Source: Elusimicrobiota bacterium (GTDB taxonomy: Bacteria; Elusimicrobiota; Elusimicrobia; UBA1565; UBA9628). Taken from it: a DNA stretch of 32,563 bases. The DNA is taken from NCBI GenBank assembly GCA_003151975.1, contig PLZD01000038.1:1-32563 (forward strand), given 5' to 3'. The number at the start of each line of letters is the position of its first letter. The stretch's first letter is position 1. A program made the position numbers and the translations under genes. Shown here in pieces: positions 12,266 to 14,531 of this stretch. The notes beneath the pieces were generated by a model that did not search any database, was not told the DNA's origin, and worked only from the letters and a program-made list of their open reading frames with translations.

Positions 12266-13084
12266 CTAGTAGCGCAGGCGATAGACCAGGCCGTAACGCT
12301 CGCCGCGGGCCTTGCCGTTGGACGAGCCCCACTCGGTCGTCACGGACACGGGGAGCTTCTTGTAGCCGAGCTCGAGGGAGGCCAGACGGTTGAATTCCCC
12401 CTGGGAATGCATGGCTTGGCGCAGGCGCAGACCTGGGGCCACGTCGACGCCAAGCTTGAAGCCGGCCACATTCATCGTGGCGTGGACTCCGTTAAGATAA
12501 AGAAAGGTACCGCCTAGAACGCCCGCCATGGTCAGGAAGCCCGGATCCCAGTTGCGTCGGTCGAGGGCGTATGAGCCAGAGGCACCGCCGAACAGCTCGA
12601 GCTTATAACGCTCGATCAAGGTGTCTCCCAAGGCGCCGACTCCCACGGACATCTGCTCCGCGGTCGCCCAAGACCTCCAAGCCTGGATCTGCGCGTCCGT
12701 CGGCGGCTTATCCGCGGAATATATCGGATAGGCGGCCCGGGCCCGCGCGAGGTAGCGGGATTCAGCCTCCCGCAGATTGCGGTCGAACAATGGAGCCGAA
12801 TCTTGATCGGGAGCGGCTTTGAGGCTGCGGGTGAGCCTCTCCGGCAGGATGTTGCCGAGTATGTGGATGCGCATGAAATCGTAGACCCCGTCGGAAACTC
12901 CCTCGACCATGCGGTAGGCCGGGTCCGCCGCGCCCGCGGCGCGAGGAGTTTCGGGAGCTTCCGTCGGCATCAGATAGCTCTGGGCCCTCGCGCTCGAGCA
13001 GGCGATCAAGGTCGCCAAACAGGCGGCCGGTATTCTCTTCATGTCTTGAGTGTAGCCGGCCCTCGTCGTGGGCGCAGGGGCCAT
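12266..13084 (-). CDS. Secreted protein of unrecognised family, paralog 1
   Basis: A 272-residue protein with a signal peptide (ACLATLIACSSARAQ) and a C-terminal YRLRY, as in outer-membrane beta-barrels. I do not recognise the family. Recognisable blocks shared with the next gene are LFDRNLRE-type, QAWRSWAT, DRRNWDPGFLTMAG, VAGFKLG and LELGYKK. I chose ATG 13084 over ATG 13042 because GGAGGAAAGG precedes it at good spacing and because its leader aligns without gaps to the leader of paralog 2 at that gene's start; 13042 has no ribosome-binding site. The N-terminal half is helical, the C-terminal half alternates hydrophobic residues. It lies downstream of paralog 2 and may also be reached by transcripts from the riboswitch-controlled promoter. 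Confidence 0.8.
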   Translation of the reverse strand: MAPAPTTRAGYTQDMKRIPAACLATLIACSSARAQSYLMPTEAPETPRAAGAADPAYRMVEGVSDGVYDFMRIHILGNILPERLTRSLKAAPDQDSAPLFDRNLREAESRYLARARAAYPIYSADKPPTDAQIQAWRSWATAEQMSVGVGALGDTLIERYKLELFGGASGSYALDRRNWDPGFLTMAGVLGGTFLYLNGVHATMNVAGFKLGVDVAPGLRLRQAMHSQGEFNRLASLELGYKKLPVSVTTEWGSSNGKARGERYGLVYRLRY

Positions 13085-14249: not shown

Positions 14250-14301
14250 AAAAAAACCCGCCGCCAGGGAGGACGAATTTGCGGTGGGTCGGGTGCGGCG
14301 G
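14250..14301 (-). terminator. Intrinsic-terminator-like element in the riboswitch leader
   Basis: Read on the minus strand, CCGCCGC (14301-14295) can pair with GCGGCGG (14264-14258), followed by one G and then a run of seven T (14256-14250). The all-GC 7-bp stem and U-tract are terminator-like, but the loop is long (30 nt). It lies between the aptamer and the gene, where a transcriptional riboswitch places its expression platform. A second perfect hairpin, TGGGGGC/GCCCCCA with a 3-nt loop (14319-14303), sits immediately upstream. Confidence 0.55.
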
Positions 14302-14325
14302 CTGGGGGCTATGCCCCCAACGATA

Positions 14326-14431
14326 TGTTGGGCCATGGTCTATTCGGTAGCCTGACGCTCCCCGAGAACGAGGGAGTCATGGCTTTGCGCCCCCGACTTG
14401 CGCCGGGTTTGCCGTTATCGCCCATCCCAAG
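14326..14431 (-). promoter_or_regulatory. Cyclic-di-GMP-I (GEMM-I) riboswitch aptamer
   Basis: On the minus strand this has the GEMM-I core: CGGCAAACC, a 6-bp stem (CCCGGC/GTCGGG) closed by a GCAA GNRA tetraloop, GGCGCAAAGCC, a second stem (TGAC...GTCA with TCCC/GGGA inside) and GGCTACCG. Aligned by eye to the V. cholerae Vc2 aptamer, the ligand-contacting positions G20, A47 and C92 correspond to 14413, 14386 and 14347, all kept. G at position 20 predicts c-di-GMP rather than 3',3'-cGAMP, whose riboswitches carry A there. P1 can form between TTGGG-ATGG (14430-14422) and CCAT-CCCAA (14338-14328). It lies in the leader of paralog 2, about 70 nt after the predicted transcription start. Confidence 0.9.
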
Positions 14432-14503
14432 AAGCCCGCCCTCCGCGAAAACGTCCAACCACGATCACCGCGGACGACACTTGGGATGGGATGCTACATG
14501 AGG

Positions 14504-14531
14504 AGTATAGCCGGATTCCTCGGTTTGTCAA
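14504..14531 (-). promoter_or_regulatory. Promoter of the riboswitch leader
   Basis: Minus-strand TTGACA (14531-14526), a 16-bp spacer and TATACT (14509-14504) give a near-consensus sigma-70 promoter; transcription should begin near 14499-14497. Two more CTTGACA copies lie upstream on the same strand (around 14554-14548 and 14567-14561) without good -10 partners. Together with the riboswitch and terminator this accounts for the 460-bp gene-free stretch 14103-14562. Confidence 0.7.

Follow-up and report, generated by a model that had tools for sequence, protein, structure and literature searches.

A c-di-GMP-I riboswitch locus of Elusimicrobiota with an upstream P0 domain, a start codon at the aptamer edge and a possibly ribosome-coupled terminator

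The closest described relatives of the locus presented here are the c-di-GMP-I (GEMM-I) riboswitches, covered in Rfam by RF01051 and by the sub-model RF03167 (c-di-GMP-I-GGC). The residues G20, A47 and C92 contact c-di-GMP in aptamers of this class (PMC4744006), and a G20A change leads to cGAMP binding (PMC7288161). In Vibrio cholerae, the available excerpts describe Vc2 as a translational switch that requires a formed P1 helix, and Vc1 (GbpA) as preceding a secreted protein. PMC9262584 states that P1 is needed for ligand binding in Vc2, where its loss abolishes binding, and that no P1 was detected in Cd1, so that a stable P1 is no strict requirement of the class. The Bacillus Bc1 riboswitch has a long expression platform with intrinsic terminators, and dual regulation is reported for it (PMC11218506).

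The window, by which the whole analysed stretch of 32,563 nucleotides is meant, carries on its minus strand an aptamer that resembles these systems in some respects and departs from them in others. It belongs to the phylum Elusimicrobiota, whose members are known mostly from metagenome-assembled genomes. Shared with RF01051 are the aptamer fold, the tetraloop-capped P2, P3, the bases G20, A47 and C92, a promoter before, a terminator after and the apparent control of secreted or surface proteins; the window differs by a two-pair P1 abutted by an additional domain (termed P0) and by a start codon that follows 6 nt behind the aptamer, while its relatives differ by a terminator inside the open reading frame (ORF). 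The RF03167 model ends at the aptamer and holds no P0 domain. The pocket bases are common to Vc2 and Vc1 as well, and the long platform with intrinsic terminators is common to Bc1; however, the abstract of PMC11218506 describes neither terminators in the regulated ORF nor a 5' domain, and the excerpts on Vc2 and Vc1 report no P0 domain or ORF-embedded terminator. The features of the locus, in order of transcription, are the following.

14531-14504, minus strand: sigma-70-type promoter TTGACA-16-TATACT, 11/12 match, the same arrangement being present at most related aptamers.
14495-14416, minus strand: P0 domain, a conserved structured RNA recognised by models R1 and R2 and by covariation.
14423-14342, minus strand: c-di-GMP-I (GEMM-I) aptamer recognised by the Rfam covariance models RF03167 and RF01051.
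14336-14334, minus strand: ATG of the leader ORF, without a Shine-Dalgarno sequence, 6 nt downstream of 14343, where the RF01051 aptamer ends.
14321-14301, minus strand: hairpin B, GTTGGGGGC-ATA-GCCCCCAGC, with its first base at +16 from the ATG at 14336.
14301-14255, then 14256-14250, minus strand: intrinsic terminator, with a stem from about 14301/14290 followed by U7, -13.6 to -14.8 kcal/mol.
14102-13275, minus strand: gene of a 275-aa secreted protein, with ATG, signal peptide, helical region and five C-terminal strands ending in ...YTLRY.

We give roughly even credence to the reading that this is a c-di-GMP-I riboswitch of Elusimicrobiota-specific architecture with ribosome-coupled control of its terminator. 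Its more specific form is put forward tentatively: P0 would replace the closing P1, the expression platform would be the ORF itself, by means of a start without Shine-Dalgarno sequence at the aptamer edge and a terminator in signal-peptide codons, and c-di-GMP would decide whether a ribosome precedes the terminator.

The identity of the aptamer is the firmest part of this reading. A preliminary description had named a GEMM-I aptamer on the minus strand and proposed the RF01051 covariance-model search as a check; that search gives 62.8 bits against a gathering score of 35 (14423-14343, minus strand; E=1.1e-11 over the whole genome), which supports the assignment. The best-scoring model, as a correction to that description, is the GGC sub-model RF03167 and not RF01051 (14422-14342, minus strand; 66.0 bits against a gathering score of 59; E=1.1e-13 over the whole window). 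We take the name GGC to refer to bases 20, 47 and 92. The RF03167 consensus has G at the position equivalent to A47 of Vc2, whereas the window has A14386, as do the genome's other five aptamers at this position; the pocket is thus canonical. Read from the sequence, the equivalents of G20, A47 and C92 are G14413, A14386 and C14347, kept as had been claimed, and c-di-GMP is accordingly the ligand predicted from the pocket. A ligand such as 3',3'-cGAMP or another dinucleotide is very improbable: A20 makes a c-di-GMP-I aptamer bind cGAMP, and of this genome's six aptamers the one on contig C40 carries it; in the window, however, position 20, the A of cGAMP-type (GEMM-Ib) aptamers, is G14413, and together with A47 and C92 it makes up the canonical c-di-GMP contacts (PMC4744006).

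It can be seen from the model alignment that P1 consists of two Watson-Crick pairs alone, C14420-G14345 and G14419-C14346. Between the promoter and the aptamer lies the P0 domain, which is absent from the preliminary description. Its common shape is about 70 nt of a long outer stem enclosing a stem-loop, with GGGG(U)UG in the apical loop of most copies; in the window the outer stem pairs 14490-14480 with 14431-14421 (11 bp) around an inner stem-loop, and its 3' arm finishes within the aptamer's first bases. In a seed of seven loci 15 of the 25 P0 pairs change on both sides, and none of 500 shuffles reaches any of five measures. Model R1, built from that seed, adds eleven loci; these include the window and contig C32 of the same genome, both absent from the seed. 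The window P0 scores 35.3 bits with R1 (E=1.9e-5, window outside the seed) and E=3e-7 in the whole genome with R2, of which the window sequence is a part, E-values of such models being rough and related genomes not independent. In the 18-locus alignment, two-sided changes are seen at 22 of the 25 pairs, and 91% of cells are paired; sliding the partner lowers this share to 37-41%. Since this alignment was fitted to the structure, the seven-locus result is the cleaner one.

P0 was also considered as an independent element and rejected. Searched against 57 genomes, those of the window and its relatives, R2 gives 19 matches, all beside a c-di-GMP-I aptamer. Of these, 18 overlap the first bases of the aptamer; in the remaining one (genome G041) P0 precedes by 43 nt an aptamer whose 5' half is disrupted. 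A search of 199 genomes from the phylum gives matches only in the window's family and in one genome of its order, likewise only beside c-di-GMP-I aptamers. A second known riboswitch in tandem was discarded too, as P0 matches no Rfam family, lax E-values included; ar14, the one further Rfam match at the locus, overlaps the terminator and is put down to chance at E=2.2. Because G14421 of the outer stem directly adjoins C14420 of P1, coaxial stacking of the two helices can be proposed, and the P0 stem probably stands in for the longer P1 that is usual. Such a replacement is a reasonable role given the P1 requirement of Vc2 and the lack of a detected P1 in Cd1 (PMC9262584). The domain looks new.

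The near-consensus promoter before the aptamer and the GC stem with T7 after it, both of the preliminary description, are likewise confirmed. The promoter is the sole such site in 3.2 kb, for which shuffles give 0.7; the same -35/-10 spacing is found 5' of most related aptamers, and the transcript is expected to start near 14497. The terminator of the window has a long loop, which counts against our preferred explanation.

The argument for coupling to the ribosome comes from the related loci; in all, 125 aptamer loci of the compared genomes were read with their flanks. Terminator-like hairpins lie within 170 nt 3' of the aptamer in 65 of the 125 loci, compared with 34 of 375 shuffles. Many relatives have an ATG behind the aptamer, at a distance of 1-8 nt, with which a signal-peptide protein begins, and hairpin B starts at +16 to +18 of this ATG in 22 of 29 loci. 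Of the 49 non-redundant ORFs whose start lies no more than 8 nt behind the aptamer, 33 carry a terminator in their early codons, at +20 to +125. When synonymous codons are permuted in these 49 ORFs, 13.5 +/- 2.3 have a terminator (over 40 trials, never more than 20); of 18 homologues of the 275-aa protein that lack a riboswitch, none has one at +20 to +125. Neither the protein sequence nor the GC content is thus likely to have produced the ORF terminators as a by-product. In roughly one third of the related ORFs, that of contig C32 included, no terminator was detected, which also weighs against the preferred explanation. The placement of a terminator within the regulated ORF seems new.

The window holds the corresponding parts. 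The ATG at 14336 beside the aptamer had been overlooked in the preliminary description; the ORF begins MAQHIVGGIAPSRRTRP and its frame stays open to 13275 (353 aa). As an open frame over the 78 codons from 14336 into the gene arises by chance in 0.16 of shuffles, it is weak evidence by itself. The leader MAQHIVGGIAPSRRTRPTANSSSLAAGFF resembles N-termini such as MANHEAKGQALGQIRRPAAALSAAAGFFF (locus L095), with an interrupted hydrophobic core, and the cassette as a whole, including its first ~30 codons and the terminator, resembles that of UPF0164/PorV-like genes, here placed as a leader ahead of another kind of secreted protein. Translated leaders are not confined to the window: in five genomes of one other genus (L024, L026, L028, L032, L036) aptamer, ATG, hairpin, terminator and a leader ORF of ~59 codons follow one another in the same layout, and the stop codon of that ORF overlaps the TTG with which the next secreted-protein gene starts.

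Built on the parts and their order, on the covariation of P0 and on the enrichment of terminators inside related ORFs, all of them observed at the level of sequence, the following course of events may be proposed. RNA would start near 14497, and the P0 stem would fold first and abut the two-pair P1. Binding of c-di-GMP in the pocket would hold or release the 3' strand of the aptamer, 8 nt from the AUG that lacks a Shine-Dalgarno sequence, so that the aptamer would act on initiation at this adjacent AUG. Where ribosomes start there, translation of the leader would keep the terminator (U7 at 14256-14250) unfolded and the polymerase would enter the secreted-protein gene; where no ribosome starts, transcription would stop at the terminator. 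We infer the stacking of P0 on P1, the ligand binding, the ribosome coupling and the control of the 275-aa gene from this arrangement.

A ribosome-independent switch of the classical transcriptional kind, in which the ligand remodels a terminator against an anti-terminator (hairpin B or the 3' strand of the aptamer), is rather unlikely in our estimate, though several observations speak for it. The window has a terminator, and the Cd1 and pilM switches of this class act at transcription (PMC9262584). Hairpin A (CCCAAC x GTTGGG), adjacent to the ATG, pairs 14332-14327 with 14321-14316, the 5' arm of hairpin B, so that the two are mutually exclusive. The A/B complementarity pooled over 20 loci is 226 against 186 +/- 10 in shuffles; as a switch, this competition was set aside, being significant when pooled and weak per locus, with the kinship of the loci uncorrected. 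Against a classical switch, none of 14 segment pairs, in which the stretch after the ATG, both aptamer ends, the P3 region and the P0 region were set against the terminator arms, pairs above chance on permutation between loci, a simple test that assumes contiguous pairing and has no independent positive control, the strong match between the terminator's own two arms following from how these were chosen; moreover, the terminators of many relatives sit in translated codons. Sequestration of the AUG was also tried and rejected: with the aptamer locked, predicted AUG accessibility rises in 10 and falls in 11 of 31 loci, and this lack of a consistent direction weighs against the preferred explanation, in which the translational switch is thus a supposition. 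As the terminator lies in translated codons and the search brought up no competing RNA, the simplest anti-terminator that remains is occupancy by the ribosome.

The gene behind the leader has a strong Shine-Dalgarno sequence, AGGAGAGGAGG, at 14116-14106, and 14102 is the probable start of the secreted protein. The preliminary description regarded this protein as unrecognised, and the searches agree: it has no Pfam match, its one NCBIfam match is insignificant (E=0.16), and its AF2 model (pLDDT 77; signal peptide, helical part and five C-terminal strands) has no significant fold match in the PDB; GTDB contigs likewise yielded no named relative of the protein. The further claim of a link between a new secreted protein family and c-di-GMP fails as far as the family is concerned, because the aptamer accompanies the window copy only. 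The genome has five paralogues, two of them in tandem within the window, and 15 other genomes of the 57 compared have homologues; in these 16 genomes, the four other paralogues here included, the window's own pair are the only homologues found on a contig together with an aptamer. The riboswitch link to c-di-GMP may hold for this one copy.

This singular association also suits an explanation that we hold to be improbable, namely that promoter, P0, aptamer and leader are the vestige of a lost UPF0164/PorV-like gene and that expression of the 275-aa gene is independent of them or depends on read-through alone. The leader peptide, which resembles the N-termini of aptamer-adjacent ORFs and has no clear hydrophobic core, and the gene's own Shine-Dalgarno sequence fit such a history. 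Against it, the promoter, the P0 stem and every core base of the aptamer are preserved, a search of the stretch from the terminator to the gene gave no second promoter, and leader plus gene are arranged alike in the five genomes of another genus.

Two observations on the paralogues may be added. Between the tandem pair in the window, just 5' of the second gene (12269-13042), a perfect hairpin, GGGCCCAAG-AACT-CTTGGGCCC, followed by TTT lies at 13129-13108 (minus strand). In front of two other paralogues (L047 and L048, on contigs C53 and C34 of this genome) stands a small ORF that is similar in both, has a strong Shine-Dalgarno sequence and carries a CRSP motif near its end; the window copy lacks it.

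Overall, the riboswitch class is an ordinary one in this genome, as it has six c-di-GMP-I aptamers and nine GGDEF domains above cut-off, and it is the architecture that is unusual and apparently undescribed before; no paper of the open-licence library searched brings Elusimicrobi*, c-di-GMP and riboswitch together. Aptamers of the class occur in 43 of the 57 genomes, and the pattern of the aptamer subtype gives 22 loci in GTDB genomes, with Elusimicrobia/Elusimicrobiota as the only phylum named in their titles. Most of the 125 loci precede proteins with signal peptides, and phylum-wide the aptamer mostly stands before other secreted or outer-membrane proteins, UPF0164/PorV-like and CsgG/FlgO-like. 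The same can be deciphered from the own genome, where the aptamers of C32 and C52 precede UPF0164/PorV-like proteins, that of C40 a CsgG/FlgO-like, that of C26 a long secreted and that of C43 a small secreted protein. If the proposed reading is true, an unrecognised structural domain would be added to one of the best-studied riboswitch classes, regulation would proceed without untranslated space for an expression platform, the terminator being encoded in the regulated protein, and a readable c-di-GMP regulon of outer-membrane and secreted proteins would become available for Elusimicrobiota.

Variants of the aptamer were met among these loci. The A20 aptamer of this genome (AATAGCACACC; L001:1501-1590, equal to C40:40860-40949), upstream of the CsgG/FlgO-like secreted protein, is confined to contig C40, and about ten more occur in relatives; Elusimicrobiota may thus use cGAMP. 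At L124, L125, L126, L129, L137 and L135, the aptamers have a P2 insertion of 25-50 nt with extra hairpins. A second aptamer type, at L006 and its relatives L039, L073 and L101, follows its promoter by ~20 nt, lacks P0 and precedes small secreted proteins, several of which share a motif like AVGLEAQGVDP.
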